Positions 1 to 25,050 of a stretch of 41,428 nucleotides of DNA are shown piece after piece; the first letter of the stretch is position 1, and each line of letters opens with the position of its first letter. The notes beneath the pieces were generated by a model, which was not told the origin of the DNA, made no database searches, and saw nothing but the letters and a program-made list of their open reading frames with translations. Source of the DNA: Pseudomonadota bacterium (GTDB lineage Bacteria > Pseudomonadota > Gammaproteobacteria > Burkholderiales > Gallionellaceae); assembly GCA_026399735.1 (NCBI GenBank), contig JAPLQK010000030.1, forward strand, positions 1-41,428, given 5' to 3'. The position numbers were made by a program, and so were the translations under genes.

Positions 1-2
1 CC

Positions 3-80
3 AGCCTGGAAGAAGCACGTCTGAGCGCGGCGAATCTGAAATCCAGCCTGGGCTATCAACCCTTGCTAAAACGGCACTAA
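3..80 (+). CDS. C-terminal end of an unidentified protein (partial)
   Basis: A reading frame enters from the left edge and ends at a TAA at 78-80, giving a 25-residue tail (SLEEARLSAANLKSS...). The piece looks helical and ends in basic residues (LLKRH). It is too short to name. A second frame is also open here and runs to about position 146, so the frame choice is a judgement based on the more protein-like composition. The gene converges on hypE, and a hairpin-rich non-coding stretch separates the two. Confidence 0.35.
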   Translation, partial: SLEEARLSAANLKSSLGYQPLLKRH

Positions 81-184
81 AAGTCTGTCGCACTTGCGAA
101 AGAAGTCCGACATACCTGGCTCTATATGAAATACGTAGGTAATACGAAAATTTCAGCGGGAATAGTACGATGAACCCGGTTTCT

Positions 185-490
185 ATCACCCCCTGTGCGC
201 CGCCGAAGACAGTCAGCAAACAGCGGTGCAGTTGGGCGAGGACTGTTCATTCAGGAATAGGCGATTTATCGCCTTATATTCCGTGGGAATGCCTTTGCGG
301 CATTTGAGCACGTGGCCGCAAGCGGATCGTGCGAGTTCCGCAGCCCCGACGTTTGTTGACTATCGAGGGTACGCCTGCCTGTTGTCAAACAGGCAGGCAG
401 GTGCGGCAAACCGGGGGCGCCTTTTCTTGGGTTACTTTCTTTTGGCGACTCAAAAGAAAGTAACCAGCCGCCGGGCTGCCCCCGGCAGAA
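185..490. repeat. Hairpin-rich dispersed-repeat-like element
   Basis: This non-coding stretch between two convergent genes holds at least five stem-loops: GGCGAT/ATCGCC (260-273), AATGCC/GGCATT (288-304), an 11-bp perfect stem with loop GTCA (373-398), a 15-bp perfect stem with a 6-base loop (430-465) and GCCGGG/CCCGGC (470-486). The overall pattern is a CCCCCTGTGCGCCGCCGAAG-like start, a GCGAGTTCCGC core and a TTACTTTCTTTT hairpin end. From memory this resembles long intergenic repeats scattered through many beta- and gammaproteobacterial genomes. Only one copy lies in this window, so repetition cannot be shown here. Open frames of 89 and 92 codons cross it, but they match no protein pattern and run through the hairpins. 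Confidence 0.55.
430..465. terminator. Perfect 15-bp stem-loop, possible bidirectional terminator
   Basis: Bases 430-444 are exactly complementary to 451-465, with the loop GCGACT between them. The stem carries runs of T on one side and A on the other, so either strand could form a terminator-like hairpin. It sits between the rightward partial gene and the leftward hypE, where a shared terminator would be expected. It also forms the end of the repeat-like element, so termination may be incidental. Confidence 0.4.
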
Positions 491-537
491 TGTGAATTCA
501 AAGTACCCACTACAAATCACATAGAACCACATACTTC

Positions 538-1578
538 CTAGCAAATCCTCGGCAGTTGTTCGCCTGCCAGCCAGTCTACGATGCGCCGTCCGCCAAGACG
601 CGTGATCATCTGCACGAAGCCATGTGAATCTGCCAGCACCTCGCCGATAATGGCGGCATCACGTGCCAGCGGATGCGCGCGCATCACGGCAAGCAAGCGC
701 ACCGCATCTTCCGGCGCGCAAATCGCGATGAGTTTACCTTCATTGGCGACATATAACGGGTCCAGGCCTAAAAACTCGCATGCCGCTTCCACCGGCTTGT
801 TAATTGCAATTGCCGCCTCATTGAGCAACATACCCACACCTGACTGCTGTGCAATTTCATTCAGCGTGGTCGCAACTCCACCGCGTGTCGGGTCGCGCAA
901 CACGCGCAACCCCGCACCGGAATCGAGCATCGCAGAGACCAGACCGTGTAGCGCCGCAGTATCGGAGACGATAGGCGCATCGAAACTCAGATTCTCGCGT
1001 TGCGAGAGCACCGCCATGCCATGATCGCCTACCGGGCCGGACAGCAATATTTTGTCGCCAGCCTGCGCCAGATTGCCAGACAGGGTAATCCCGTCGCGCA
1101 CCATACCGACAGCGGTCGTGGTGATAAAAATCCCGTCGCCCTTGCCCTGCTCCACCACCTTGGTATCGCCGGTGACAATGGGTACGCCTGCCTCTTGTGC
1201 CGCATGCGCCATGGATTCGACGATGCGTTTCAGGTCTGAGAGCAAAAATCCTTCTTCGAGTATGAAAGCCGCAGAGAGATACAGCGGCACAGCGCCCATC
1301 ATCGCAACATCGTTGATCGTGCCGTGCACCGACAGACTACCGATATCGCCCCCGGCGAAAAACAACGGTGAGACCACATGACTGTCGGTCGACATCACAA
1401 GACGCCCGGATACAGGCGGCAGCACCGCACCATCGTTTCCTTCAGCCAGATAAGGGTTGTCAAACGCCTTTGCAAACAGCTCATTGATCAGGTGCGCAGT
1501 CACACGGCCGCCTGAACCGTGCTGCATCTCGATGCGCCCATTTTTGAAATCCAGCGGACGAATATAGTTTATATTCAA
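538..1578 (-). CDS. hypE: Hydrogenase maturation protein HypE (carbamoyl dehydratase)
   Basis: HypE dehydrates the carbamoyl group that HypF attaches to its C-terminal cysteine, giving the thiocyanate used for the CN ligands of the [NiFe] centre. The 346-residue protein has the family's N-terminal HGSGGR (about residue 20), GNDGAVL and the GDTKVV nucleotide-binding segment. It ends in PRIC, so the essential terminal Cys346 is present. The best-supported start is a TTG at 1578. It overlaps the hypD stop by four bases and has an AGGTGA ribosome-binding site a few bases upstream, which suggests translational coupling. The next in-frame ATG (about residue 18) would cut into the conserved start of the domain. 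It is the last gene of the leftward hypCDE unit. Confidence 0.96.
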   Translation of the reverse strand: MNINYIRPLDFKNGRIEMQHGSGGRVTAHLINELFAKAFDNPYLAEGNDGAVLPPVSGRLVMSTDSHVVSPLFFAGGDIGSLSVHGTINDVAMMGAVPLYLSAAFILEEGFLLSDLKRIVESMAHAAQEAGVPIVTGDTKVVEQGKGDGIFITTTAVGMVRDGITLSGNLAQAGDKILLSGPVGDHGMAVLSQRENLSFDAPIVSDTAALHGLVSAMLDSGAGLRVLRDPTRGGVATTLNEIAQQSGVGMLLNEAAIAINKPVEAACEFLGLDPLYVANEGKLIAICAPEDAVRLLAVMRAHPLARDAAIIGEVLADSHGFVQMITRLGGRRIVDWLAGEQLPRIC

Positions 1579-2702
1579 TTACTCACCTCACGAAACCTGC
1601 CGTAGGAATAATGCGCCGCGCATGCGCCCTCGCTTGACACCATGCATGAACCGATTGGATTCTCCGGCGTACAAACGTTGCCGAAAATTTTGCATTGCTG
1701 CGGGCGTTTTTCACCTCTGAGAATCGCCGCACATTCGCATGCCTTATGATCGGGCACGGCAACATAATCAACGCCAAATCTGATTTCCGCGTCGTATCCG
1801 GCAAATTCCGGGCGCAGCTTCAAGGCGCTGTTTGGCAAACTTCCCAAACCGCGCCATTCAAAAAAATCTTTTAATTCAAATACTTCTGAAACAAGCACCT
1901 GCGCCTTTTGATTGCCGTCGCGGGTCACCGCGCGGGTGAATTCGTTTTCCACTGCCGCGCTGCCATTGTTTCTTTGGCTGTTGATCTGGCGTATCAGCAT
2001 CAGAATCGCCTGCATCACATCCAGCGGTTCAAATCCGGCAATCACCACCGGCTTGGCATAATCAGTGGCGAACACCTCATAGGGTTTGCTGCCGATCACG
2101 GTGGAGACATGCGCTGGCCCGATAAAACCGTCCAGCGATACGCTGCCTTCAACATCCAAAATGGCATGCATTGCCGCAGGCGTCAACACATGGTTGCACA
2201 GGATGCTGAAATTTTTCAGCCCCTCAGCTGCCGCCTGTTTGATTGCAACGGCAGTGGGCGGCGTGGTGGTCTCGAAACCGATCGCCAGAAAAACCACCTG
2301 CCGCTCCGGGTTATCTCGCGCGATCTTCAACGCATCCTGTGTCGAATAGATCATCCGCACGTCCGATCCTGCTGCCTTGGCGCGCATCAGCGTCAAATTA
2401 CCGGATGCCGGAACACGCAGGGTATCGGCGTAAGTGCACAAAATCACACCGTGATCACTCGCCAGCCTGATCGCCTGATCGATGCGGCCAATCGGCAAAA
2501 CGCACACCGGACAGCCTGGCCCATGAATCAACCGGACCGGTGCGGGCAGCAAATCGGCCAGACCATAACGCGAAATGGCATGAGTATGGCCGCCGCAAAA
2601 CTCCATCAGTCGATATATTCCGGCAGGACATGCCTCACGCGCAATGTTGGCGGCGATAATCGATGCCAGTTCGCCATTGCGGAATTCATCCAGATACTTC
2701 AT
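1575..2702 (-). CDS. hypD: Hydrogenase maturation protein HypD
   Basis: HypD is the [4Fe-4S] scaffold on which, together with HypC, the Fe(CN)2CO unit of [NiFe]-hydrogenase is assembled in the cytoplasm. The 375-residue length is normal. Visible signatures are MEFCGGHTH near residue 35, [11 protein letters not shown] (the redox-active Cys region) near residue 65, and a C-terminal cluster region with four conserved cysteines ([19 protein letters not shown]). The ATG overlaps the hypC stop by four bases (ATGA), and the stop overlaps the TTG of hypE. All three maturation genes are therefore coupled. Confidence 0.97.
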
Positions 2703-2935
2703 GCCGATGTTCCGCGCTGAAAATCGTCCATCTCAGCGAACAGTGCCAGCGTGCGTTCAGCTTCATCCGGATCGAGTTTTTGCAGCGCGTAGCCGACATG
2801 CACGATCACATAATCACCTATCGCAACATCCTCCACCAGTGCCAGTGATATTTCCTTCTTCACTCCGCCCAGATTGACGATAGCGCTGTCACCGGCGAGA
2901 AGTTGTTCGATTCGGGCGGGAATAGCCAGACACAT
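2699..2935 (-). CDS. hypC: Hydrogenase maturation chaperone HypC
   Basis: HypC/HupF-family chaperone that carries the Fe(CN)2CO moiety with HypD and delivers it to the hydrogenase large-subunit precursor, here presumably HoxH. The 78-residue protein starts with the diagnostic MCLAIP, in which Cys2 is the functional residue, followed by the small barrel ([28 protein letters not shown]). An AAGGA ribosome-binding site lies about eight bases before the ATG. It is followed by hypD with a 4-base overlap. The HDOD gene lies 57 bases upstream on the same strand, so hypCDE may be read from the promoter of the signalling genes. Confidence 0.96.
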
Positions 2936-2992
2936 TTCAAGTCCTTGTTTTAAAATAGTTTTTTATAAAAAACAATGTCGGGTCACAGAAAA

Positions 2993-3832
2993 TCAGGAGA
3001 AAGCCGATGCAATCTCTTCAGCACGCGCGCGCATGGCCGCTTCGACCGCCTCCACACGATCTTCCGCAATACCCAGTGCCTGCCATTCGCAAAGCTCGAT
3101 ACCTGAAAGTTTTTGCTCATTGCTACCGAAAGTAGGCAACAACTTTTCAGCCAGATTTGTCATGGCAATCAGCGTCTTCCCTGTTTCTGCCGCCTTATGA
3201 TGGTGGCGTAACACGGCAATGATGGCATCTGTCAGGTTCCAGTGTTCAGCCAGCAGCGCGCCTAACTCACAGTGATTAATCTCCAGCATCTCGGCCTCAA
3301 TCTCGGCGTCCATCGCCACGCCTTCTTCAAGGAGACGTGCATGAAAACGGTTGCTGAGTTCAGGTTCCACATATTCCAGTACCAGAAAACCGATATCGTG
3401 CAACAGCCCGGCAAGATAAATATCCTCATCCGGCGGACGCATTTCCTGTGGCATCGCCTTGGACAGTGCATCCATCGCCAGCGCAACAGCCATGCTGTGC
3501 TGCCAAAGTTGCCGCACATTCAAAAGGCCTGGCAGATTACGGGTAACGGATGACATCATCGCAAAACCTAATGCAACCATCTTGACGCGTTTGATACCCA
3601 GTACCGTCGCAGCATCCCCGACGGTCATGATTTTTCTTGATGTGCCGAACAGCGGAGAATTGGCCAGACCGACAATCCTGGCCGAAATGGCCGGATCCTT
3701 TTCAATCAGTTTGAGCAGCAGCTCATTGCCCCTGTCCGATGCCAGTTCAATAGACAGGATTTCACGGGCAGTTTCAGGCATGGCAGGCAGCGACTGCAGG
3801 GTACCGACGTTGTGGTGCATTGTAGGTGTCAT
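2993..3832 (-). CDS. HDOD-domain signalling protein
   Basis: The protein of 279 residues is almost entirely an HDOD domain, a degenerate HD-phosphohydrolase relative found in bacterial signalling proteins and usually non-catalytic. Typical features are LPAMPETAREIL at the start, the KDPAISARIVGLANSPLFG helix pair, a VLGIKRVKMVALGFA segment and an LLHDIGFLVLEY helix that keeps an HD pair. There is no membrane segment. The GGDEF-EAL gene ends only 11 bases upstream, so the two are probably one transcript. hypC follows after 57 bases. The ATG used is immediately preceded by GGAG with no spacer. A second ATG five codons in (about 3820) would have a 12-base spacer, so the exact start is uncertain. 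Its partner and output are unknown. Confidence 0.88.
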   Translation of the reverse strand: MTPTMHHNVGTLQSLPAMPETAREILSIELASDRGNELLLKLIEKDPAISARIVGLANSPLFGTSRKIMTVGDAATVLGIKRVKMVALGFAMMSSVTRNLPGLLNVRQLWQHSMAVALAMDALSKAMPQEMRPPDEDIYLAGLLHDIGFLVLEYVEPELSNRFHARLLEEGVAMDAEIEAEMLEINHCELGALLAEHWNLTDAIIAVLRHHHKAAETGKTLIAMTNLAEKLLPTFGSNEQKLSGIELCEWQALGIAEDRVEAVEAAMRARAEEIASAFS

Positions 3833-3843
3833 CTCCGGGTAAA

Positions 3844-6441
3844 TTATAAATTATCTGAAAACAAAGTATGACCGCTGCGCCATGCCATCAGCCGGGCTGC
3901 CGGCATCGGACGGGCAATCGCGTAGCCCTGACCGATATCACACCCCATTTCCAGCAGCAGATTAAACTGTTCTTCAGTTTCAATACCTTCCGCCACCGTC
4001 TTTAGCTCGAAGGCCCGAGAGAGTGCAATAATCCCCAGCACGATGGCATGATCGCCTTTGTTCGTCGTCAGATTGCGCATAAAGGATTGATCGATCTTTA
4101 GCACATCAACCGGCAGACGACTAAGATAGGACAATGAAGAATATCCCGTACCGAAATCATCCAGTGCAAAGCTCACGCCGAGTTTCTTGCAAGCTTCGAT
4201 GATGATCGACACTTCACCGATATCCTCCAGCGCTGCAGTTTCCAGAACCTCAATCTGAAAACGATGCGCCGGTATATCGGGATGACGCAACAGTTGTTGC
4301 TGTAACTTTTCAACAAAATTTGCCGATTCAAGATGATGAGCTGAAATATTCACGCTGATTTCGACATCCAGTCCTGCAACGCACCACGCCTCCATCTGTT
4401 GCAGCGCGGAGGCGAGCACCCATTCTCCGAGTTCGATGTCGAGTTCAGAACTTTCAATCGCAGGCAGGAATCTTGCCGGAGACAACAAACCCATTTCGGG
4501 ATGATTCCAGCGTATCAAGGCCTCTGCGCCAATCAACTGCCGGTCAAGCATGTTGATTTTCGGCTGGTAATACAGCTCGAACTCGTTGTTCAGGAGGCCC
4601 TGGCGGATTTTATTCTGCAACTCATGCTGGCTGCGGGCACGCTGATCCAGCGCGGGATCATAGATGTGGAAACGGTTTTTTCCCGACTGCTTGGCCACGT
4701 ACATGGCCTGATCCGCATGGCGCAGCAGCGTATCCGAATCTTCGTCGTCGAGCGGGTAGACGCTGACACCAATGCTGGCATTGACCACGATGGATGTAGA
4801 CATCATCTCGATCGGTTCGGCAATGGCTGCAAGCAGGCGATGAAGCGTTCGGCTGCATTCCTCACCGCGCTCCAGACCCTGCAACAGGATGACAAACTCG
4901 TCCCCACCAAGACGCGCAACCGTATCCCCTCCGCGTATCGTATTCTGGATGCGCTGTGCAATCTCGATCAATACGTGATCGCCTGCCTCATGCCCCATCG
5001 TATCGTTGATCGGCTTGAATCCGTCCAGATCCAGATAACAGATCGCCATCATATTCTGTTCTCGTGAAGTCCTGGCAATACCCTGTTTCATGCGATCGCC
5101 CAGCAGGGTACGGTTCGGAATACCCGTCAGCGCGTCGTAGTGCGCAATGCGTTCCAGTTGTTTTTCGTGATGCTTGATCAGCGTGATATCGGAAGCGATG
5201 CCGGCATAGTGTGTGACTTGTCCGGCTTCATTGGCAATGGCCGCAACACTCAGCCACTCGGCATAAACCTCGCCATCCTTTTTTCGGTTCCAGAGTTCTC
5301 CTGCCCAATGACCGCTAGCCGTAATCGATTGCCACATGGATTCATAAAACGAACGGCTTTGCAGGCCCGATTGCAGCATGCGCGGATTTTTTCCGATCAG
5401 TTCTTCTCGGGTATAGCCGCAAATCTTGCAATAGGCTTCATTGACATCGATGATATTGCCGGACGCATCGGTGATCGTAATGCCTTCCAGCGTATTCGAA
5501 AACACCTTGGCCGTCAGACGCAGCTGATCCTCTGCCCGTTTACGTTCGGTAATATCGCGGACATTCAGCACGATGCCGGCGACCACCGGATTATTGGTCA
5601 GATTACGACCTGTCATCTCGATATTGCGATAGCTGCCGTCTTTATGTCTCAGGCGAAATTCCAATTTCTCCGGAACGCATCCGTCTGCATGAATCTGCAA
5701 GCCGGAAAGCGCCATTTCAGCTTTAGCCTGCTCATCCGTATGAATCAATTCATTGATGTGCCTGTCAGTGATTTCACCGGTTGTAAAACCCAGCACCTGT
5801 TCGACTGAGGGCGAAATAAAACGCACCAGACCTGTATCGGAAATAATGGCGATGATGTCACTGCCGCGTTCGACCAGCGTACGAAACAGCGCCTCACTGC
5901 GGCGCAGCACCTCCTTTTCACGCTCCAGTCCATAGGTTTTTTCATTGAATATCTCGTAGTTGCGAATCACGAAATAGAACGCCATCAGATACAGACAAGA
6001 CGTGACGATATCGATATGGGAATAAGCGGTATTGAAACCGGGCAGAAAATGTCCGACCACAATCGTTGCGAGAATCAGCATCAGCCAGGCAAAACCGATC
6101 TTTCTGCCTTTCAGAAAAAAAGCCGAAGCCGCCAGCAGAAAGAACAGCGAGATGCGCGTCGAATTATAGCTGGCCAACAGATAAAGAGCTGTAAACAGAA
6201 AATAGGAAAGCGCCAGTGCGATCGAACTGACGATTGCTGCACGTGCTTGATGTCGCCGGAGGTAATAAATAAGCGAAAAATTGCAGATCGCAAAAACAGC
6301 ATCGGCCATACCCATCACAGCGCTGGTCTGCCAGCGATACAAAGCCATTCCCAGCGCCACAATTCCGGCAAACAGAAAAACACTATTCAGGAAGGCGACT
6401 TTATGGTCGGGTGTATTTTCGACGGGGTTGGGCTGGGTCAT
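3844..6441 (-). CDS. Membrane PAS-PAS-GGDEF-EAL cyclic-di-GMP protein
   Basis: The 865-residue protein is probably a bifunctional or switchable cyclic-di-GMP enzyme. Residues 15-160 hold about five or six hydrophobic membrane segments. Two PAS domains follow (about 185-300 and 310-425), then GGDEF (about 435-595) and EAL (about 605-860). The diguanylate cyclase site is intact (LGGDEF at 511-516). An RxxD inhibitory site, RGGD, lies exactly five residues before GGDEF. The phosphodiesterase half keeps EAL (640-642), EISVNIS, DDFGTGYSSL and AEGIETEEQ, so it also looks active. No clear Shine-Dalgarno precedes the ATG. It heads a leftward set with the HDOD gene and probably hypCDE. The second PAS has a GHWxGExWNRKKDG pattern that recurs in the divergent GGDEF protein next door. 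Confidence 0.95.
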   Translation of the reverse strand: MTQPNPVENTPDHKVAFLNSVFLFAGIVALGMALYRWQTSAVMGMADAVFAICNFSLIYYLRRHQARAAIVSSIALALSYFLFTALYLLASYNSTRISLFFLLAASAFFLKGRKIGFAWLMLILATIVVGHFLPGFNTAYSHIDIVTSCLYLMAFYFVIRNYEIFNEKTYGLEREKEVLRRSEALFRTLVERGSDIIAIISDTGLVRFISPSVEQVLGFTTGEITDRHINELIHTDEQAKAEMALSGLQIHADGCVPEKLEFRLRHKDGSYRNIEMTGRNLTNNPVVAGIVLNVRDITERKRAEDQLRLTAKVFSNTLEGITITDASGNIIDVNEAYCKICGYTREELIGKNPRMLQSGLQSRSFYESMWQSITASGHWAGELWNRKKDGEVYAEWLSVAAIANEAGQVTHYAGIASDITLIKHHEKQLERIAHYDALTGIPNRTLLGDRMKQGIARTSREQNMMAICYLDLDGFKPINDTMGHEAGDHVLIEIAQRIQNTIRGGDTVARLGGDEFVILLQGLERGEECSRTLHRLLAAIAEPIEMMSTSIVVNASIGVSVYPLDDEDSDTLLRHADQAMYVAKQSGKNRFHIYDPALDQRARSQHELQNKIRQGLLNNEFELYYQPKINMLDRQLIGAEALIRWNHPEMGLLSPARFLPAIESSELDIELGEWVLASALQQMEAWCVAGLDVEISVNISAHHLESANFVEKLQQQLLRHPDIPAHRFQIEVLETAALEDIGEVSIIIEACKKLGVSFALDDFGTGYSSLSYLSRLPVDVLKIDQSFMRNLTTNKGDHAIVLGIIALSRAFELKTVAEGIETEEQFNLLLEMGCDIGQGYAIARPMPAARLMAWRSGHTLFSDNL

Positions 6442-6761
6442 GATGTGATGGCAAGATTAACGCACTGCGAAGTGTACCCTATCGGGGAAATGCAAGGTAA
6501 GGGATTGATTACGCTAAACGGTCCATTTTCCAATAAATATCAGGCAAAGACGTTGCGGTTCATGCCCGTTCAATAAGGGTGGAAGACCCCGTTGAATTTT
6601 CCACTTCAGCTCCCTCCGGCAATACCTGAATACAGGCCTGATAATCATTGCTTCTGCTACATCCGAAGAGTAGGATGTTCCAGCAGACAATGACCGCCCT
6701 GCAACATATGTACAGAAGCGCTTCACCCCGACTCAACCCGGCTTAAAAGCAGACATATCAA
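6442..6761. promoter_or_regulatory. Divergent intergenic region between two GGDEF genes
   Basis: These 320 bases separate the leftward GGDEF-EAL gene from the rightward GAF-PAS-GGDEF gene, so they must hold promoters for both arms unless transcription starts further away. I see no convincing sigma-70 pair and no strong palindrome. A weak TTGGAA/TAATCA pair with 16-base spacing lies on the minus strand at roughly 6500-6530. No protein-like open frame is present. Confidence 0.4.
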
Positions 6762-8159
6762 ATGAAAATCGCCTCTCTTCCCGGTAACGAACATGAGCGC
6801 CTTGAGGCACTCAGGAATTACGACATCCTTGATACGGCTCAGGAAACCGCATTTGACAACATGGTGCAGCTGGCGTCCTACATTTGCAAAACGCCTATTG
6901 CCGCAATCAGCCTGGTAGATGAACAACGGCAATGGTTCAAGGCCATCACCGGAATTGATGCCAGAGAAACCCCGAGATCGGTCGCATTTTGCGCCCATGC
7001 CATCCTTCAGGACGACGCAATGATCGTCCCGGATGCAACAAAAGACGAACGTTTTTTTGATAATCCGCTGGTAGCCTCCGCACCGGACATCCGGTTTTAC
7101 GCCGGTTTTCCGCTGATTACCTCACAGGGCTATCATCTGGGTACGCTGTGCGTTATCGATCGCATACCCCGTGTGCTGGACGCATCGCAACTGGATGCGA
7201 TTAAAGTGCTGGCCGACAATGTCATGGCGCATCTTGATTTGCGCCTGTCCCACAAACATATCCGCCAGTATGCTGACGATATGAAACTGGCGGCCACCAT
7301 TTTTCAGTCCAGCAGCGAAGCCATGGTGGTCACCGACGCCGATAACCGCATCATCACAGTGAACCCGGCTTTTACGAAATTAACCGGTTACACCGGCAAT
7401 GAGGTCATCGGGAAAAACCCCAATCTGCTTAAATCCGATAAGCAACCGAAAGAATTTTATCAGCAGATGTGGCATTTACTGAAAACGAAGGGGCACTGGG
7501 ACGGAGAAGTATGGAATTTACGAAAAAGTGGTCAATTGTATGCCGAGTGGCTGTGCATCAATGTGATTTACAACGACGATGGATCGACGCGCCTGTATGT
7601 GGCGATCTTTTCCGACATTACAGAAAAAAAACAGGCCGACGAACTTGTATGGAAGCAGGCCAATTATGACCAGTTGACGCATTTGCCTAACCGGCGGTTG
7701 TTCCGCGACCGGATGGCGCAAAGCATTAAAATTGCGAACCGCAGCAAGAATTCTTTCGCGCTGATGTTTATTGACCTCGATCGCTTCAAGGAAATTAACG
7801 ATATCCTCGGACATCATACGGGCGATAAGCTGCTGCAGGCGGCGGCCCTGCGCATCAATCAGTGTGTGCGTGAAATGGATACCGTTGCCAGAATGGGTGG
7901 GGATGAGTTTACGGTGATCCTGTCGCAGATTGCCGACCCGATTTACGCCGGAAAAATCGCCGGAACCATCATCCGAAAACTTAATGATCCATTCACAATC
8001 GAAGGCGCCGATATCGACATTTCGGCCAGTATCGGCATTACGATCTATCCCGCTGACGGAGACAATACGGAGCAACTGCTCAAGAATGCCGATATCGCAA
8101 TGTATGCCGCCAAGCACAGCGGTCGCGGCCGTTTCAGTTATTTCACCCTACCCGCATAA
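6762..8159 (+). CDS. GAF-PAS-GGDEF diguanylate cyclase
   Basis: This is a soluble 465-residue cyclase that makes cyclic-di-GMP from GTP. A GAF domain covers about 20-165 (ISLVDEQRQWFKA, SVAFCAHAI, GTLCVID are typical of this GAF subgroup). A PAS domain with PAC motif covers about 175-290 and a GGDEF domain about 300-463. The active site is GGDEF at 379-383 and the inhibitory site REMD at 370-373, the correct five residues upstream. There are no membrane segments. The PAS resembles the second PAS of the divergently encoded membrane protein (IGKNP, GHWxGExWN, YAEWL), suggesting an old duplication or a shared ligand. hoxF begins 162 bases downstream on the same strand. The Shine-Dalgarno is weak (AAAAGCAGA). 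Confidence 0.95.
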   Translation: MKIASLPGNEHERLEALRNYDILDTAQETAFDNMVQLASYICKTPIAAISLVDEQRQWFKAITGIDARETPRSVAFCAHAILQDDAMIVPDATKDERFFDNPLVASAPDIRFYAGFPLITSQGYHLGTLCVIDRIPRVLDASQLDAIKVLADNVMAHLDLRLSHKHIRQYADDMKLAATIFQSSSEAMVVTDADNRIITVNPAFTKLTGYTGNEVIGKNPNLLKSDKQPKEFYQQMWHLLKTKGHWDGEVWNLRKSGQLYAEWLCINVIYNDDGSTRLYVAIFSDITEKKQADELVWKQANYDQLTHLPNRRLFRDRMAQSIKIANRSKNSFALMFIDLDRFKEINDILGHHTGDKLLQAAALRINQCVREMDTVARMGGDEFTVILSQIADPIYAGKIAGTIIRKLNDPFTIEGADIDISASIGITIYPADGDNTEQLLKNADIAMYAAKHSGRGRFSYFTLPA

Positions 8160-8321
8160 TTGATAATGCAATAAATTTGTCACCCCATTGCTTTATGATA
8201 TGACGGTTCAGATAACGATCCAGTTTAAAATCGCGTGATGCGCATTAAATCAGTTTTGTAGAATCAGCCGCGTAACCAGAAAAATTGTATCCGACAATTT
8301 AAACCCATTGAAAGTGTTCTC

Positions 8322-10130
8322 ATGGTCAGCCCAATCGACACGCATGCCGCTTACCTGAATCCGATACTCAGCGTTCACCGTCATAACGCGAACGATCTGC
8401 TTCAAATACTCATCAAGGCTCAGGAACATTACGGATACATCCATTCCGACGCGATCGATCACTTAAGTTCGCAGTTACAACTTCCCCGCTCGAAAATCGA
8501 AGGCGTGGCCGGATTTTATTCATTTATTTACCTGCAACCGCAAGGCTGCTATCGCGTATTGTTCTCCGACAACATCACCGACCGTATGCTGGGCAACATG
8601 GATCTGATGGAAAGCCTGTGCAGCCAGTTGTGGGTGGAGCCTGGCAAGATATCCGAAGATGGATTGCTCAGTGTCAACACCACATCCTGTACCGGCCTAT
8701 GCGATCAGGGGCCGGCGATGCAGGTCAACAACATCGCGATAAACCGGCTGTCGCAAAGCCGGGTGAATGCGATCTGTGAGTTAATCCGCGAGCGTGTGCC
8801 GCTATCCGCCTGGCCTGTCGAATTTTTCGCCATCGAGGATAATATCCGGCGCCCTGATGTGTTGCTTGACAGCCAGTTCAAGTCCGGATCGGCGCTACAT
8901 GCACTATTGCAGCACGGAACCGTCGAGACCTTGCAGCAAATCAAGACATCAAAATTGCGCGGACGCGGCGGCGCTGGTTTCTCTACCGGCATGAAATGGG
9001 AATTCTGTCGAGAAGCAGAGGGTGAACAGCACTATGTCGTGTGCAATGCCGATGAAGGAGAACCCGGCACTTTTAAGGATCGCGTTTTGTTGAACGGCTA
9101 CGCCGACATGGTGTTCGAGGGCATGACCCTGTGCGCCCGTATCATCGGTGCAAAAAAGGGTTTTCTCTATCTGCGCGGTGAGTATCGTTATCTGCTGGAA
9201 CACTTGCAGGCCGTGCTGCAGCATCGCCGCCACCAGAATCTGTTGGGAAACAACATTCTCGGCAACAGTGATTTCAACTTCGACATCGTGATTCATCTCG
9301 GCGCAGGAGCATATATCTGCGGAGAAGAATCCGCGCTGATCGAATCGCTGGAAGGCAAACGCGGCACACCGCGCAATCGGCCGCCTTTTCCGGTGACGCA
9401 TGGCTATCTCAACCAGCCTACCGTAGTGAACAACGTCGAGACCTTTGCCGCCTCGTGCCTGATCTCACTGCATGGCGGGGAATGGTATGCCGCCATCGGA
9501 ACGGACACGTCCAGCGGGACCAAGATCCTTTCCGTGTCAGGCGATTGTGAACGACCCGGTCTGTACGAATATCCCTTCGGCGTCACGGTAGCTCAGGTGC
9601 TGACCGATTGTGGCGCTGTCAACACACAGGCGGTGCAAATCAGCGGTCCTTCCGGCGTGTGTATCGCGCCGGATGAATTTAACCGGTGCATCGCCTTCGA
9701 GGACATCCCGACGGCGGGCGCATTTATGGTGTTCGATCAGAGCCGCGACATGTTTGAAGTCGCGCGCAACTTCGTACATTTCTTCAAGCATGAGAGTTGC
9801 GGATTCTGTACGCCTTGCCGGGTCGGCACATCCTTGCTGTCCAACATGATGGACAAACTTAGCGCAGGTCACGGCTCACCCTACGACTTTGCCGAGATCG
9901 AGAAGTTGAACGTATTGTTGCAATCTACCAGTCACTGCGGACTGGGACATTCGGCCTGTAACCCGGTGCTGAATACCATCGCCAAGTTCCGTCCAGCCTA
10001 CGACAAGCGACTGGCACACAAGGATTTTGTCCCGGCTTTCGATCTTGATGTCGCCTTGTCTCAGGCACGTCAGATGACTGGACGCGATGATACAGGCGCA
10101 CATCTGGAGAGAAGTCATGAGTCAAAGTAA
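8322..10130 (+). CDS. hoxF: NAD-reducing hydrogenase diaphorase subunit HoxF
   Basis: HoxF binds FMN and NAD(H) and passes electrons between NAD and the hydrogenase module. The 602-residue protein fuses a NuoE-like N-terminal domain (about 1-150) with a NuoF-like domain. The NuoE part keeps only one cysteine pair (SCTGLC, C123 and C127). The position of the first pair reads FSDNITD, so its [2Fe-2S] cluster is probably absent, which I believe is usual in HoxF of this type. The NuoF part has RGRGGAGFSTG and GAYICGEESALIESLEGK for FMN/NADH, and SCGFCTPCRVGT plus a later cysteine for a [4Fe-4S] cluster. No strong Shine-Dalgarno precedes the ATG. The 3' end overlaps hoxU by 14 bases. Confidence 0.96.
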   Translation: MVSPIDTHAAYLNPILSVHRHNANDLLQILIKAQEHYGYIHSDAIDHLSSQLQLPRSKIEGVAGFYSFIYLQPQGCYRVLFSDNITDRMLGNMDLMESLCSQLWVEPGKISEDGLLSVNTTSCTGLCDQGPAMQVNNIAINRLSQSRVNAICELIRERVPLSAWPVEFFAIEDNIRRPDVLLDSQFKSGSALHALLQHGTVETLQQIKTSKLRGRGGAGFSTGMKWEFCREAEGEQHYVVCNADEGEPGTFKDRVLLNGYADMVFEGMTLCARIIGAKKGFLYLRGEYRYLLEHLQAVLQHRRHQNLLGNNILGNSDFNFDIVIHLGAGAYICGEESALIESLEGKRGTPRNRPPFPVTHGYLNQPTVVNNVETFAASCLISLHGGEWYAAIGTDTSSGTKILSVSGDCERPGLYEYPFGVTVAQVLTDCGAVNTQAVQISGPSGVCIAPDEFNRCIAFEDIPTAGAFMVFDQSRDMFEVARNFVHFFKHESCGFCTPCRVGTSLLSNMMDKLSAGHGSPYDFAEIEKLNVLLQSTSHCGLGHSACNPVLNTIAKFRPAYDKRLAHKDFVPAFDLDVALSQARQMTGRDDTGAHLERSHESK

Positions 10131-10890
10131 TACCTTTACCCTCGACGGCAAGACCATTCCCTACAACGAAGGGCAAACTATCATTCAGGCCGCGATGGCG
10201 GCGGGCGTTTATATCCCGCATCTGTGTTTCAACCCCGAGTTCAAGCCGCACGGTTCATGCAAGCTCTGCACGGTGAAAGCCAACGGTCGGCAGACGGCAT
10301 CCTGCACCCAGCATCCTGCACCCGGCATGGTGGTCGAAAGCGATACCATTGAGATCAACGATGAGCGTCGTGCGTTGTTGCAGATGCTGTTCGTCGAGGG
10401 CAATCACTTCTGCCCGTCCTGCGAGAAGAGCGGCAACTGCCAGTTGCAGGCCACCGCCTATGAAATGAAGATGATGTCACCGCACTTCGATCAGTTCTTT
10501 CCGGACCGAATGCTGGATGCCTCGCATCCGGAATACCTGCTGGATTTTAACCGCTGTATCCTGTGTTCGCTGTGCGTGCGCGCCAGTCGCGATGTCGACG
10601 GCAAGAACGTGTTCGCCTTGTCGGGGCGAGGCATCAAGAGCCATTTGATCGTCAATGCAAAATCAGGTCGCCTGGCAGATACCGATTTTAGCGGTGACGA
10701 CAAGGCGGCGCACGTCTGCCCGGTCGGCGTGATCCTGAAAAAACGCGTCGGTTTCACGATACCCATCGGTCAGCGCAGTTTCGACGAGCAGCCGATAAGC
10801 GCGACGCCGCACCCGCAAGGGGCATGTCCGGTGGGTCCCCGCAGCAATACTGCGACCCTTCCGCCACACCCGACTGTGAAAGGCGGTTGA
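10117..10890 (+). CDS. hoxU: NAD-reducing hydrogenase diaphorase small subunit HoxU
   Basis: HoxU is the iron-sulfur wire between HoxF and HoxY, homologous to the N-terminal part of NuoG. I start it at the ATG at 10117, which has GGAGAG five bases upstream, rather than at an earlier ATG at 10087 inside hoxF. In this 257-residue version a ferredoxin-type [2Fe-2S] site uses C37, C48, C51 and C63. A His/Cys cluster site uses H97, C99, C102 and C108. A [4Fe-4S] site uses C147, C150, C153 and C201. The family core ends near PIGQRSFDEQPIS (residue 228). A 29-residue Pro/Gly-rich tail follows that I do not recognise from HoxU. hoxY starts one base after the stop. Confidence 0.95.
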   Translation: MSQSNTFTLDGKTIPYNEGQTIIQAAMAAGVYIPHLCFNPEFKPHGSCKLCTVKANGRQTASCTQHPAPGMVVESDTIEINDERRALLQMLFVEGNHFCPSCEKSGNCQLQATAYEMKMMSPHFDQFFPDRMLDASHPEYLLDFNRCILCSLCVRASRDVDGKNVFALSGRGIKSHLIVNAKSGRLADTDFSGDDKAAHVCPVGVILKKRVGFTIPIGQRSFDEQPISATPHPQGACPVGPRSNTATLPPHPTVKGG

Positions 10891-10891
10891 G

Positions 10892-11443
10892 ATGAACACT
10901 CCTGTTAAAGCAAAACTCAAGGTCGCTACCACCTCGCTGGCAGGTTGTTTCGGCTGCCACATGTCCTTTCTGGATATCGACGAGCGCCTGCTGGATCTGC
11001 TGCAACTGGTTGAATTCGACCGCTCGCCGCTGACCGATATTAAACACTGCGGCCCTTGCGACATCGGCATCATCGAGGGCGGCTTGTGCAATGCCGAGAA
11101 CGTGCATGTGCTGCGTGAATTCCGCGCCAACTGCAAGATTCTGATTGCATTGGGTGCCTGTGCGATCAACGGCGGCCTGCCAGCCCAGCGCAACCACCTG
11201 CCTCTGACGACGATTCTGGAAGAGGTCTATCACGCACAGCACGGCCTGGTTGACGGCTTCATTCCGAACGATCCCGAATTGCCGTTACCGCTGGACAAGG
11301 TGCACCCGATACATGAGGTAGTGAAAATAGATTATTTCATTCCCGGCTGCCCTCCCTCGAGCGACGCCATCTGGAAAGTACTGACAGATCTGTTAGCGGG
11401 TAAAGAGCCCGAACTCGGCCACGGCCTGATCCATTACGATTAA
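10892..11443 (+). CDS. hoxY: NAD-reducing [NiFe]-hydrogenase small subunit HoxY
   Basis: HoxY carries the proximal [4Fe-4S] cluster that takes electrons from the active site in HoxH to HoxU. The 183-residue size fits the short cytoplasmic small subunits of group 3 enzymes. There is no Tat signal and there are no medial or distal cluster domains. Probable ligands are C19 and C22 (GCFGC), C90 (LGACAINGG) and C153 (PGCPPSSDAIW). Extra cysteines occur in KHCGPCD and GGLC. The ATG follows the hoxU stop by a single base and hoxH starts nine bases after this gene, so the subunits are translated in close order. Confidence 0.96.
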   Translation: MNTPVKAKLKVATTSLAGCFGCHMSFLDIDERLLDLLQLVEFDRSPLTDIKHCGPCDIGIIEGGLCNAENVHVLREFRANCKILIALGACAINGGLPAQRNHLPLTTILEEVYHAQHGLVDGFIPNDPELPLPLDKVHPIHEVVKIDYFIPGCPPSSDAIWKVLTDLLAGKEPELGHGLIHYD

Positions 11444-11452
11444 AGGTACTTT

Positions 11453-12937
11453 ATGTCTTCACTTTTAGAAACTGCCGCGAATCCGGAAAATCTGCGCCGC
11501 GTCGCCATCGACCCGCTATCGCGTGTTGAAGGTCACGGCAAGGTCACGATTTTACTCGATGACAAAAACAAGATACATCAGGTGCGCCTGCACATCGTCG
11601 AGTTTCGCGGCTTCGAAAAATTTATTCAGGGGCGCCCCTACTGGGAAGTGCCGGTGATGGTGCAACGTCTGTGCGGCATTTGCCCGGTGAGTCATCATCT
11701 GGCGGCAAGCAAGGCGCTGGACGCCATTGTCGGTGCAAAACATCTGACGCCTGCTGCCGAGAAAAACCGTCGCCTGATGCACTACGGCCAGATACTGCAA
11801 TCGCATGCGCTGCATTTTTTCCATCTGTGCTCACCCGATCTGCTATTCGGTTTCGACAGCGATATCTCCAAACGCAACATCGTCGGCATCGCCCAAAAAT
11901 ATCCTGAAACGGCAAAACGCGGCATATTGCTGCGCAAGTATGGCCAGGAAGTGATCCGTCACACCGCAGGCAAACGCATCCACGGCACAGGTTCGGTTCC
12001 GGGCGGCGTGAATAAATCGCTGTCGATAACAGAACGTGACGAACTGCTCAAAGACATCTACCAGATAGTGGCATGGAGCCGGGATGCGGTGCACATGGTC
12101 AAGGAGTTGCACCACAACAATCCGGAACTCTACAACAGCTTCGGGGCTTTTCGCGCCAACTACATCTCGATGGTGGGTTTCGATGGTTCGCTTGATTTGT
12201 ATCACGGCAGACTGCGCGCACGGGATGAGAACGGCCATATCCTGTTTGACGGGGTGGACTACCAGAACTACTCTGAACTGATCGGTGAAGAGGTCAAAAA
12301 CTGGAGCTACATGAAGTTCCCCTACCTGAAATCGCTGGGCACAGAACGCGGCTGGTATCGGGTAGGTCCCATGTCACGCATACAGAATTGCGATTTTATT
12401 TCCACACCGCTGGCGGAGATCGAGCGTCGTGAGTTCATGGCCTACAGTGGCGTGATGCCGATGCACGCACCGCTCGGTTACCACTGGGCACGGATGATCG
12501 AGATGTTGCATGCCGCCGAGATGATCAAGGATCTGCTGCACGACGATGACATCACCGGCAGTGATCTGATCGTGACCGGAGAGCGCGGTTTTGAGGGGGT
12601 TGGCGTGATCGAAGCGCCGCGCGGCACGTTGATCCATCACTACCGGGTGGACGAGAACGATCTGGTCACCATGTGCAATCTGATCGTCTCCACTACGCAT
12701 AACAATCAGGCGATGAACGAGGCGGTGCGACGCGTCGCGCAGCAATATCTGCACGGCCATGAAATCACCGAAGGCCTGCTCAATCATATCGAAGTCGCAG
12801 TGCGCGCGTTTGACCCGTGCCTGTCCTGCGCCACCCATGCGCTGGGCAAAATGCCGCTGCAAGTCGAAGTGCTGAATGAGGCCGGCGAACAACTCTCCAG
12901 CCTGTCGCGTACCAGTGACGGAATCCTCAGCACATGA
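11453..12937 (+). CDS. hoxH: NAD-reducing [NiFe]-hydrogenase large subunit HoxH
   Basis: This is the catalytic subunit of a cytoplasmic bidirectional (group 3d-like) hydrogenase. The 494-residue precursor shows the N-terminal metal-binding motif RLCGICPVSHH (C74, C77) and the C-terminal motif DPCLSCATH (C456, C459), so all four Ni-Fe cysteines are present. Maturation would cleave after H462 and release a 32-residue peptide beginning ALGKMP. The protease gene hoxW begins within the last four bases (ATGA overlap). The group 3d assignment rests on the HoxF-HoxU partners and gene order. Cluster order FUYH matches the Cupriavidus-type soluble hydrogenase, without hoxI. Confidence 0.97.
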   Translation: MSSLLETAANPENLRRVAIDPLSRVEGHGKVTILLDDKNKIHQVRLHIVEFRGFEKFIQGRPYWEVPVMVQRLCGICPVSHHLAASKALDAIVGAKHLTPAAEKNRRLMHYGQILQSHALHFFHLCSPDLLFGFDSDISKRNIVGIAQKYPETAKRGILLRKYGQEVIRHTAGKRIHGTGSVPGGVNKSLSITERDELLKDIYQIVAWSRDAVHMVKELHHNNPELYNSFGAFRANYISMVGFDGSLDLYHGRLRARDENGHILFDGVDYQNYSELIGEEVKNWSYMKFPYLKSLGTERGWYRVGPMSRIQNCDFISTPLAEIERREFMAYSGVMPMHAPLGYHWARMIEMLHAAEMIKDLLHDDDITGSDLIVTGERGFEGVGVIEAPRGTLIHHYRVDENDLVTMCNLIVSTTHNNQAMNEAVRRVAQQYLHGHEITEGLLNHIEVAVRAFDPCLSCATHALGKMPLQVEVLNEAGEQLSSLSRTSDGILST

Positions 12938-13443
12938 CGGCGGTGCCTGTCCTGATTTTTGCCGTCGGAAACGAATCGCGCGGGGACGATGCGCTGGGGC
13001 CGCTGCTGTTGCGGGAACTGGATGCCTGGTTAAGTTCAGAAGACGTGGGCAGGGAGAAGGGTCAAGGGTTTGTTGAACAATTTGAACTGATTGAAGACTT
13101 TCAGTTTCAGATCGAACACGCGATGGACATGAAGGACAGAAAATTGATCCTGTTCATCGACGCAGGTATGGATACGCGCGCACCTTTTGCCTTTTATCGT
13201 TTGCAAGCCAATAACGAACCGGTGCTGTACAGCCATGCGCTGGCGCCCGAAGCCTTGCTCAAGGTCTATGCGCAGTTCTATCATCAGGTGCCACCCGATA
13301 CGTTCGTTTTATGCATCAAGGGTGAATCATTCGAACTGGGCGAAGCTCCCTCCCCTGAAGCGCTGGCGAATCTGGCTTCGGCGTTGCAATTTATCAAACA
13401 GCGCTTGCTTGATGCAGATGCGCTCGCATGGGATAAAATATAA
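12934..13443 (+). CDS. hoxW: HoxH C-terminal processing endopeptidase HoxW
   Basis: Nickel-dependent hydrogenase maturation protease (HyaD/HycI/HoxW superfamily), 169 residues. The N-terminal strand and catalytic-site motif VGNESRGDDALGP is intact, and a second metal-binding aspartate is likely in LFIDAGMD. It overlaps hoxH by four bases, the classic position for the cognate protease of the large subunit. The segment around residues 28-60 (EDVGREKGQGF...) is longer than in many HyaD-type enzymes; I believe HoxW members vary here. It is the last gene of the hox operon. No clear terminator follows in the AT-rich 60 bases downstream. Confidence 0.93.
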   Translation: MTAVPVLIFAVGNESRGDDALGPLLLRELDAWLSSEDVGREKGQGFVEQFELIEDFQFQIEHAMDMKDRKLILFIDAGMDTRAPFAFYRLQANNEPVLYSHALAPEALLKVYAQFYHQVPPDTFVLCIKGESFELGEAPSPEALANLASALQFIKQRLLDADALAWDKI

Positions 13444-13502
13444 TTATTAATCAATTAGTTACAATTTTATGTTTCATCGGGTTTATTTAGAGGAGAACCT
13501 TC

Positions 13503-13646
13503 ATGACCAGACCTCCAGACCACGCGCGCCTCGACCGGGTCGTCGCCGATGCGCGACGGCAAAGTGAATTGCGTGAATCCGGTTACCGCGAGCGGGCGCT
13601 GAAGTTATATCCATGAATATGCGGACGATGTGCGCGCGAATTCTCA
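13503..13646 (+). pseudogene. YajD-like HNH nuclease remnant with in-frame TGA
   Basis: A GAGGAG ribosome-binding site precedes an ATG and 37 codons (MTRPPDHARLDRVVADARR...). The end, ESGYREKALKIYP-like, is characteristic of the small YajD-family HNH endonucleases. The frame then meets TGA at 13614-13616, exactly where the family has the Trp of YPWxCGRC. After the stop the family sequence resumes in frame (ICGRCAREFS), then degenerates before the expected HH motif. It is therefore a broken gene: one nonsense mutation plus loss or scrambling of the catalytic half. Assignment is from memory of the family. A functional 37-residue peptide is unlikely but not excluded. Confidence 0.6.
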
Positions 13647-13874
13647 GCGGTGCTGTTGTCGGATTTGAATAACTGGTGTTGTCACGTAAGCAGTCGTAGA
13701 ATGACACGCAAATATGCTTACGCCATGGACTGCTAGGTGCCATTACCCGCCATTCAAGTTGCTGACCGGGAACGACTGCTTACTGAAGCAAAGCAGATAG
13801 TAGAAATTGCCATCGTCCCTGAATTTTGGCATCTTTGCTGTCAGTTTTGATTTTTTGTACATATCTTTGATTTA
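13647..13874. other. Non-coding debris between HNH remnant and toxin gene
   Basis: No intact gene is visible. An 8-bp inverted repeat (13685-13692 with 13715-13722, CGTAAGCA/TGCTTACG) lies here. A 37-codon GTG-started frame (13737-13850, including VADRERLLTEAKQIVEIAI) has protein-like composition and could be a fragment of a lost gene, but I cannot identify it. Confidence 0.4.
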
Positions 13875-14186
13875 TTACAGTCGTTTTTCTGCATTCGTAT
13901 AGACCAGCAGTCCATCACGTCTGTTTACTGAAAGTACCAGTACCACCAGCATGTCATCTTCAACGCTATAAACAAGTCGGTAACCGATCTTTCGCAGCTT
14001 GATCTTGTAGCACCCGTGCAGTTCGCCATGTAGTTGTGAACCCGCAACATGGGGTTCGTCCAATCTCTTTTTGAGTGCCTTACGCAGCGGGTCCTTGATG
14101 CTGCCGTCTAGAGCATTCCATTCATCCAGTGCTGCTGGAATGAATTTCAGCCGATATTTATGTTGCACGTCCGGTTTAGATTTCAT
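13875..14186 (-). CDS. RelE/StbE-type toxin
   Basis: Small basic protein of the RelE/ParE mRNA-interferase superfamily, 103 residues from the ATG at 14186. Family hallmarks are YRLKFIPAALDEWNALD at the start, the KKRLDEPHV helix, LHGCYKIKLRKIGYRLVYSV and a closing VLVLSVNRRDG strand. Homologues usually cleave mRNA at the ribosome and are held inactive by the antitoxin encoded next to them. The ATG lies inside the last codons of the antitoxin (11-base overlap), a common arrangement for co-translation. An upstream TTG (14201) would add five residues. Confidence 0.88.
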   Translation of the reverse strand: MKSKPDVQHKYRLKFIPAALDEWNALDGSIKDPLRKALKKRLDEPHVAGSQLHGELHGCYKIKLRKIGYRLVYSVEDDMLVVLVLSVNRRDGLLVYTNAEKRL

Positions 14187-14427
14187 CAATATTGACTTCA
14201 ATCGCTGAATCTTTCAGTGCAAGACGCTGACGTGCAATATTGGTCAATGCGCGGTCTTCATTGCGATCAATCAGCGCTTCATAAACACTTGGGGTAATCA
14301 TATAAAATGCAGGGCGATTGTGATTGAGAACTGCAACGGGACGTTCGCCAGCCGAACGTAGAATTTGCGATGGATTCTTTTTAAACTCGGACATGCTGAT
14401 TGAAAGATCTGCGTATATCGCTTCCAT
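14176..14427 (-). CDS. Phd/YefM (StbD-like) antitoxin
   Basis: Antitoxin of 83 residues. The start MEAIYADLSISMSEFKKNP, the middle SAGERPVAVLNHNRPAFYMI and a variable acidic C-terminus (SAIEVNIDEI) fit the Phd/YefM DNA-binding fold with a toxin-binding tail. The ATG at 14427 has GAGGAT upstream at normal spacing; a 19-codon in-frame extension further upstream has no such signal. Proteins of this family usually bind their own promoter with the toxin, so autorepression is likely. The pair sits in a patch of decayed genes, typical for mobile or addictive cassettes. Confidence 0.85.
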   Translation of the reverse strand: MEAIYADLSISMSEFKKNPSQILRSAGERPVAVLNHNRPAFYMITPSVYEALIDRNEDRALTNIARQRLALKDSAIEVNIDEI

Positions 14428-14602
14428 GAAAATATCCTCAAATAAATAGGAGTTAAATATAGAGCTATTTTCGGCGCTTATCAAGCGTATTCGATGATGC
14501 TGGTCAATTTCACAGGATTTTTAAGCCTAGCACAACATCTTGGCTGGGGAAGATATTATGGCTTGTACCGGCTTTGCATTTTTTCAATTGTGTCCGCCAT
14601 GG

Positions 14603-14983
14603 TTATTCAGGCTTGATGACTTCAACGCTATCGCTTAATCCCAGTAGCCACCAGACAAGTTGAGGTGTGTCGGCAACCGTGGCTGTCAGGCGAAATGATC
14701 CATTTTCCTGTTTGGTGATGGTTTGATCGTGGCTTAACGCGGTTTCGAACATGTGATTTCCCATGGCACTATAAAAAATGGCTTCCAACTGAATCAGTTC
14801 GCCATGTCCAAAGCCGAATTTCCCAATGTTAATCTGCTCATCGATAGAAAAGTCCGCCGGTACGCAAGTGGCCTCATCCAAAATAGTGACTGACTGGATG
14901 CGGTGTAACGCCAGTGTGCGTAAAAGCGGATAGTCACAAGGCAGATTGGCTATAACCGCAATGTCTCGTTTGCCGCCTGTCAC
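14603..14983 (-). pseudogene. C-terminal fragment of a WYL-domain regulator
   Basis: About 126 codons match the second half of WYL-domain transcriptional regulators: LALHRIQSV, FSIDEQINIGKFGFG, LSHDQTI and LTATVADTPQLVWWLLG, with the usual end after SVEVIKP. The N-terminal helix-turn-helix and first half of the WYL domain are missing. The same frame stays open upstream to about 15109 apart from a TGA at 14990-14992, and includes a WYL-like VQYRDLNSG. This suggests a nonsense-broken, 5'-truncated gene rather than a short native one. The only start available is a GTG at 14983. The truncated piece may still be made, but could not bind DNA by itself. Confidence 0.65.
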
Positions 14984-15130
14984 GCCGCATCAAGATGAAC
15001 GTCTGCAATATGAACCAAAACCGCTGTTCAAATCGCGGTACTGAACAAATAGAATTTTGCAGTTGAAATTTCTGGCTGGTTTGAGATTGGAATGAGTGGC
15101 GGAATTCATTGGAATACGTGAATAGACCGG

Positions 15131-17913: not shown

Positions 17914-17937
17914 AAATATTGTTAACTATATGAATAT

Positions 17938-17943
17938 ATTATA
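17938..17943 (-). promoter_or_regulatory. Possible -10 box (TATAAT) for the TAXI gene
   Basis: A perfect TATAAT on the minus strand lies in a very AT-rich segment about 25 bases before the GTG start. There is no good -35 at 17-18 bases, and the region is so AT-rich that chance matches are likely. The DUF2147 gene ends just upstream, so the TAXI gene could also be read through from it. Confidence 0.3.
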
Positions 17944-17966
17944 TATTTTATGGATATGACCACTAT

Positions 17967-25030: not shown

Positions 25031-25050
25031 AGAACCTAATAACCGTAGCT

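Follow-up and report, generated by a model that had tools for sequence, protein, structure and literature searches.

A predicted cyclic di-GMP signalling gene pair next to hydrogenase maturation genes in a Gallionellaceae genome

The contig JAPLQK010000030.1 (41,428 nucleotides, nt) of a Gallionella-type metagenome-assembled genome (MAG; GCA_026399735.1, here G000; 82% complete, 2.38 Mb), from an uncultured iron oxidiser of the Gallionellaceae, carries the hydrogenase maturation genes hypCDE and the Hox hydrogenase genes hoxFUYHW in two divergent arms, with three signalling genes between them: one for an HDOD protein, one for a PAS-PAS-GGDEF-EAL protein (GGEAL below, for gene and protein alike) and one for a GAF-PAS-GGDEF protein. 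The entire contig (C72) is referred to as the window; other genomes, loci and contigs are given G, L and C numbers. The reading that we prefer, with a probability of about 0.55 when taken whole, is that GGEAL and HDOD form one two-gene unit of cyclic di-GMP (c-di-GMP) signalling, old in the Gallionellaceae. In one protein clade this unit would have become lodged in a hyp operon, with hypA on one side and hypB on the other. In the lineage of the window, hypA, hypB and hypF would then have gone from the site, so that the pair now immediately precedes hypCDE in the same orientation, and the GAF-PAS-GGDEF gene would have come separately. GGEAL would be a membrane-anchored PAS sensor, probably of redox or flavin type, that both makes and degrades c-di-GMP, and HDOD would be the output coupled to it. 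Through co-transcription the expression of GGEAL would follow that of hypCDE, and the pair would read the cellular redox state independently of the hydrogenase rather than sense H2 through it.

Open reading frames (ORFs) and families were checked by profile comparison (Pfam and NCBIfam/TIGR) and by reading the sequence. On the reverse strand, hypE (538–1578; TIGR02124, 456.6 bits), hypD (1575–2702; TIGR00075, 457.1 bits) and hypC (2699–2935; 78 residues, read from the sequence) overlap successively by 4 nt; the window HypC is 84, 81 and 78% identical to the HypC proteins of G015, G067 and G055, respectively. An AT-rich gap of 57 nt (2936–2992) separates hypC from the HDOD gene on the same strand (2993–3832; 279 residues), whose product belongs to the HDOD family (PF08668, E = 5.6e-47, 160.2 bits against a cut-off of 22.9) and carries HDIG within an LLHDIG motif. 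GGEAL (3844–6441, reverse strand; 865 residues) follows after 11 nt. Beyond a divergent intergenic region of 320 nt (6442–6761), in which a tblastn search found no remnant of hypA or hupE, the GAF-PAS-GGDEF gene (6762–8159, forward strand; 465 residues) encodes a putative diguanylate cyclase and ends 162 nt before hoxF. The first-pass annotation had reported these three genes as the only ones between hypC and hoxF, and re-checking of the ORFs, strands, families and gaps confirmed that the arrangement is real. The G+C content at third codon positions is 0.56–0.60 in the three signalling genes and 0.59–0.68 in hypD, hypE, hoxF, hoxH and hoxW, at or slightly below the neighbours, which gives no strong sign of a recent foreign origin.

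The GGEAL protein has an N-terminus that is hydrophobic by eye and contains the motifs RxxD, GGDEF, EAL (EALxR), DDFG and EGIE. The motifs of a phosphodiesterase are present in its EAL domain and those of a diguanylate cyclase (GGDEF and the RxxD I-site) in both GGDEF proteins, and the corresponding activities are predicted. GGEAL shares the PAS-GGDEF-EAL order of DibA/Gmr-type proteins (NF045675, NF007474) and scores 594.5 bits against the DibA model; it differs from DibA in staying below the cut-off of that model (980), in its extra hydrophobic N-terminal region and in having an HDOD partner gene. The second PAS domain of GGEAL and the PAS domain of GAF-PAS-GGDEF were compared with solved structures. 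The closest relative of both is 3ewk, with 2gj3 second or third (3ewk and 2gj3 on top for one domain; 3ewk, 9qq6 and 2gj3 for the other). PMC9668731 assigns the PAS domains of these two entries to MmoS (3ewk) and NifL (2gj3), both flavin redox sensors, and names T103, H132, N164 and R195 as flavin-pocket residues of MmoS. Alignment by eye matches T103 and N164, but not H132 and R195, in both window domains; redox sensing by these domains is plausible.

The named hox loci that match the window best come mostly from Gallionella or Gallionellaceae MAGs, and 20 wide Gallionellaceae hox loci served as the comparison set. In nine of them (G001, G002, G011, G015, G024, G033, G055, G067 and G080) the contig also includes hypD, on the side of hoxF; hypA, hypB and hypF stand between hoxF and hypD in all nine and hupE does so in seven. 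The window site lacks hypA, hypB and hypF. Members of the window signalling set at more than 60% identity occur at two of the 20 loci, and at two of 80 named hox loci, in the same two genomes: L199 (G067) has GGEAL and HDOD, and L202 (G010) has GGEAL, adjoining hoxF. Counted from hoxF, the order in G067 is hupE, hypA, GGEAL, HDOD, hypB, hypF, a FliD_C-like ORF (scoring below its cut-off), hypC, hypD and hypE, all from hupE to hypE being on one strand, opposite to hoxF; the end of GGEAL shares 4 nt with HDOD, which stops 33 nt ahead of hypB. The order in G061 and G065 is hypA, an opposing chemoreceptor gene, a fused GGEAL-HDOD gene, hypB and lon. The G065 contig begins within a hoxF-like gene, and in G061 (L244, 5130–5698) hoxF fragments lie beside hypA, apparently the remains of a decayed hox operon. 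Other GGDEF-EAL genes, recognised by similarity, lie outside hypE in L200 (G001) and L205 (G080). HypF beside hox is a short form aligning only over residues 413–775 or so in many Gallionella (L197, L198, L204 and others) and is full length in L192, L191 and L199.

Away from these loci, HDOD lies directly beside GGEAL in nine of 15 loci; at E 1e-6 none of the 15 (several of them short contigs, and G178 and G179 of the clade below included) gives a match to hyp or hox genes. In a second set of 16 loci fetched for GGEAL or HDOD, two (G061 and G065) contain hyp/hox genes and three more give only distant matches (28–31%) to hypE or hoxF paralogues. These surveys point to an old two-gene unit that is mostly unlinked to hydrogenases. 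The window GGEAL belongs to a ten-member clade (G078, G179, the window, G067, G178, G010, G065, G061, G031 and G047; support 100/100). Five of its members (the window, G067, G010, G061 and G065) belong to a hyp or hox locus, and two of its lineages have the pair between hypA and hypB, ending 33–49 nt before hypB. The pair is unlinked in G078, where flanks are visible on both sides; G178 shows only 215 nt after HDOD, with no neighbouring gene in that span.

Linkage mapped on the GGEAL tree changes three times (three is also the forced minimum; shuffled labels average 4.8 changes, and 15 of 500 shuffles need as few), which would represent either two gains and one loss or one gain with losses. 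Between the window and G067, GGEAL and HDOD are 77% identical, hypC, hypD, hypE and hoxF 79–84% and hoxH and hoxY 91–92%; the similar divergence of the pair and of the hyp genes and hoxF is as predicted for shared descent and argues against recent transfer between these two genomes. As to a simple single origin, the data reject a GGEAL clade of G000, G067 and G010 that would exclude G078 and the genomes with the fusion (p-AU 0.003, for a group named after the tree had been seen and before G178 and G179 joined).

GGEAL and HDOD are fused in four genomes (G061, G065, G031 and G047; Pfam was run on the G061 fusion), and the fusion argues that the two proteins work together. In G031 and G047 the fused gene is flanked by the same chemoreceptor (81–82%) and Lon-type (86–87%) genes, and neither genome gives a match to HoxH (E 0.001), HypD (1e-60) or HypB (1e-40). 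A HoxH orthologue is lacking in G031, G047 and G061 (G061 having a distant match only) and present in G065. The ratio of nonsynonymous to synonymous substitution rates (dN/dS) is 0.08–0.20 in nine pairs, with the motifs present and with dS above 1 in six of the pairs; for the fused gene it is 0.12 between G031 and G047 and 0.15 between G061 and G065. These values indicate purifying selection on the fused gene in genomes lacking a HoxH orthologue and, since neither G031 nor G047 has a HoxH match, suggest that the unit has value in the absence of Hox.

The GAF-PAS-GGDEF gene appears to have had a different past. Its orthologues (62–64% identity) lie away from hox in G023, G055 and G067, on which ground a single module of three signalling genes was rejected. 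The three genes of the window would thus have two histories, with GAF-PAS-GGDEF as a separate arrival.

A single five-gene transcript of the left arm, from GGEAL through HDOD to hypCDE, is plausible because the genes share a strand, the gaps are 11 and 57 nt, the hypCDE genes overlap by 4 nt and no terminator-like site was found in the HDOD–hypC or GGEAL–HDOD gap. The distance from the end of HDOD to the next hyp gene on the same strand is 57 nt in the window, 33 nt in G067 and 49 nt in both G061 and G065, that is, 33–57 nt in all four genomes that keep HDOD at hyp, and shared transcription of HDOD with the hyp genes is therefore likely. On the other arm, the region upstream of hoxF (8160–8321, forward strand) keeps most of a conserved block (AAATCAGTTTT...GTAGAAT), 7 nt shorter than in G011, G015 and G028. 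The block also occurs in G001, G011, G015, G028, G055 and G067, or in seven of 20 aligned upstream regions with the window included, by a pattern written after the alignment had been viewed; hoxF therefore probably has a promoter of its own. Promoter- and terminator-like matches over the window were no more frequent than in shuffled sequence (8 against 13.0 and 20 against 17.5, respectively), so these scans are uninformative. A c-di-GMP or metal riboswitch was also looked for, and an Rfam scan of positions 1–20000 gave no match up to E 1; a tRNA search of the window found none.

Signalling genes are abundant in this MAG, which contains 52 GGDEF and 16 HDOD matches. Two or more GGDEF domains in a given 5.4 kb stretch would occur with p of about 0.006 under random placement. 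Nine of the 52 GGDEF domains have a second one within 3 kb (random expectation 12%), and seven of the 16 HDOD matches have a GGDEF domain no farther than 3 kb away (expectation 12%). Proximity of GGDEF and HDOD is a habit of this genome, and it is therefore the position between hyp and hox that needs explaining. Across the 80 named hox loci (the window itself left out; 64 hold hoxF and 48 extend at least 5.5 kb beyond it) there are 17 signalling proteins: 11 with GGDEF, two with EAL only and four with HDOD only. Fifteen of these lie in 929,156 flanking bases and two within the hox span (L058, and L102, in which a second large subunit stretches the span). The hoxF side (377,412 bases) has eight GGDEF proteins against 8.2 expected and the hoxW side (551,744 bases) two against 12.0, the expectations using the GGDEF density of G000 although densities differ among other species. 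On these counts a tie of c-di-GMP genes to hox was rejected as a general rule. The first-pass annotation had held that hydrogenase loci usually lack second-messenger enzymes; known exceptions such as HydDB group 2c qualify this. Individual loci with such genes include L058 (11449–14718; a Rhodocyclaceae MAG), where a 1090-residue HAMP-PAS-GGDEF-EAL gene sits between hoxH and hoxW, and L064 and L077, where GGDEF-EAL genes lie directly upstream of hoxF (in L077 by similarity only).

That annotation had proposed a link from H2 or NAD redox state to c-di-GMP. In its full form, hydrogenase activity or the NADH state, read by the PAS and GAF domains, would set c-di-GMP so that cells attach where H2 is available, and the genes would be kept adjacent because they act together. 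Such a dedicated circuit would suit the occurrence of linkage in several arrangements (on the hypC side, between hypA and hypB and on the hoxF side), the clustering of linked members on the GGEAL tree, the well-supported branches that force at least three label changes and so permit two separate gains, and the likeness of the PAS domains to flavin redox sensors; HydDB group 2c and the EAL/GGDEF/PAS cluster of a hydrogenase neighbourhood study (excerpt of PMC12727194) offer precedent. We nevertheless consider it unlikely. The set is absent beside hox at 18 of the 20 wide loci, whereas a conserved hox-linked regulator would be seen in most close relatives, and the closest HoxH relatives of the window, G011 and G028, lack it, as does G055; in this part the outcome is one that the annotation had itself named as refuting its proposal. 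Signalling genes are not enriched around the 80 loci, the fusion is kept under selection in genomes without a HoxH orthologue, G078 has the pair in an unlinked place and gave no HoxH match (78 of 150 genomes did), GAF-PAS-GGDEF is unlinked in three relatives, and the block upstream of hoxF suggests that hoxF has a separate promoter. The proposal is therefore partly supported: one GGEAL clade does accompany hyp and hox genes in several arrangements, but a three-gene H2 device as stated is unsupported, because GAF-PAS-GGDEF has a separate history and the other two genes live without a hydrogenase. A bolder variant, which we regard as quite improbable, would make the GGEAL-HDOD of this clade a c-di-GMP switch coupled to hydrogenase maturation: placed at the head of the hyp transcript and with redox input through flavin PAS domains, it would tie attachment (or stalk building) to the making of active hydrogenase in iron oxidisers. 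It would have arrived at hyp/hox loci on two or more occasions and would outlive the hydrogenase where Hox was lost.

Juxtaposition without functional consequence, the hypA-hypB-hoxF region being a rearrangement hotspot in a GGDEF-rich genome, is also unlikely but has a number of points in its favour. The hypA–hypB junction holds chaperone-usher and spore-coat-U genes in G055 (L191, 3523–7634), where G067 has GGEAL-HDOD, although the two genomes are nearly identical in hox and hyp (HoxH 98%, HypB 92%), and it holds a cytochrome-oxidase/SCO1 group in G028. The supply of GGDEF and HDOD genes is large, GGDEF/EAL genes match the background density on the side of hoxF and fall short of it on that of hoxW, and a DUF2147/TAXI-type gene pair likewise shifts place between the window and G010. 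Against chance placement stand the recurrence of the same GGEAL clade, in two lineages between hypA and hypB, and the constant position of the pair on the hyp strand, 33–57 nt before a hyp gene, in the four genomes with HDOD at hyp. Several points weigh in turn against the preferred reading of a pair lodged in a hyp operon. In G061 and G065 a chemoreceptor gene separates GGEAL from hypA, and the position thus differs from that in G067. In G179, sister to the window and G067, the 7.9 kb upstream give no match to hyp or hox genes, on a contig that ends inside HDOD. The HoxH tree scatters the GGEAL-bearing loci among loci lacking the pair (four changes, no better than shuffles), and a single origin therefore needs many losses or transfer. 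The 57 nt HDOD–hypC gap could hold a promoter, if a weak one, MmoS residues H132 and R195 are unmatched by eye in both compared PAS domains, and the HypB start found elsewhere in the MAG (contig C78, below) is a weak match (E 0.006). As a separate observation, the chaperone-usher/spore-coat-U set of G055 and the GGEAL-HDOD pair of G067 may both relate to attachment.

HydDB lists [NiFe] group 2c as 'Diguanylate cyclase-linked (putative)' and states that it 'May sense H2 and regulate processes through cyclic di-GMP production' (part of PMC5037454). The window resembles that group in linking hydrogenase genes to c-di-GMP enzymes, group 2c having a proposed route from H2 to c-di-GMP. It differs in that group 2 comprises alternative or sensory uptake enzymes, from which HoxH is set apart by its HoxFUYH gene set, and in that the window has the NAD-linked HoxFUYH and its closest link is to the hyp maturation genes. 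In the betaproteobacterium Dechloromonas aromatica, a GGDEF gene likewise lies near hypABF and hydrogenase genes (PMC2907700, Table 5); it stands between two clusters of the membrane or uptake type, and the accessible part of that table has no HDOD or EAL gene. The available excerpt of a Gallionellaceae pangenome study (PMC10734462) reports that 71% of the members that oxidise iron have HoxFUHY and that HupUV, present in some Gallionellaceae, is confined to iron oxidisers; it lists c-di-GMP proteins elsewhere, not joined to Hox. The EAL/GGDEF/PAS cluster mentioned above appears in the gene-cluster table of a 2025 neighbourhood study of [NiFe]-hydrogenase with succinate dehydrogenase (PMC12727194, in part). 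A search of the open-access literature on hydrogenases and c-di-GMP, in the portions available, found no experiment tying Hox to c-di-GMP.

The HupUV/HoxBC-HoxJ-HoxA regulatory systems use a sensory hydrogenase together with a two-component system. The window locus would resemble them in connecting H2 to cell regulation, but its hyp–hox interval contains no sensory hydrogenase or two-component genes. If functional, the arrangement would couple the building of a hydrogenase with the second messenger of attachment in iron-oxidising bacteria, as proposed, putatively, for HydDB group 2c; if not, it would illustrate how signalling genes in a GGDEF-rich genome can appear operon-linked through history alone. 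The remaining interest is that members of one GGEAL clade repeatedly accompany hyp and hox genes. The arrangements provide a natural experiment: the signalling genes are placed between hypA and hypB in some genomes, immediately before hypCDE or next to hoxF in others, and in others again are retained once Hox has gone.

The hyp genes lacking at the window site are partly visible elsewhere in G000. One end of contig C78 encodes HypA and a weak match to the first 18 residues of HypB, next to a HyaB-like (group-1-type) large subunit, and HypF is encoded at the end of contig C54. A search of the MAG for HypB gave no match at E 1e-40, probably owing to a contig break. The HyaB-like, HupE-like and HypA genes of C78 (L243, 1–8290) suggest that the organism may make two hydrogenases.

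The hox arm forms a single row on the forward strand, which we take to encode an NAD-linked bidirectional hydrogenase of HydDB group 3d. It comprises hoxF (8322–10130; 602 residues, a NuoE-NuoF fusion) and hoxU (10117–10890), both identified by Pfam and NCBIfam profiles, hoxY (10892–11443; PF01058), hoxH (11453–12937; NiFe large subunit, PF00374) and hoxW (12934–13443; putative HoxH protease). The NiFe cysteine pairs of HoxH, read from the sequence, are present in RLCGICPVSHH (CGIC) and DPCLSCATHA (DPCLSC). HoxW has no Pfam match and is named by its position and its shared place in relatives. Near hoxW (16534–18440) lie a TAXI/NMT1_3-type gene and a DUF2147-type gene, the counterparts of which in G010 are beside GGEAL (L202, 13569–15385; 79% identity for the TAXI-type and 71% for the DUF2147-type product). 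Copies this close occur in one of the 80 named loci, that of G010 itself, besides one weak TAXI-type match (39%, L044), and the shared pair favours common descent of an enlarged locus in the window and G010. Two RND efflux systems (20676–29770 and 30798–36707) are encoded farther along the window: one has two AcrB-type pumps, and the other, of the CusA/CzcA heavy-metal type, includes an HlyD-type protein that carries a CusF-like domain.

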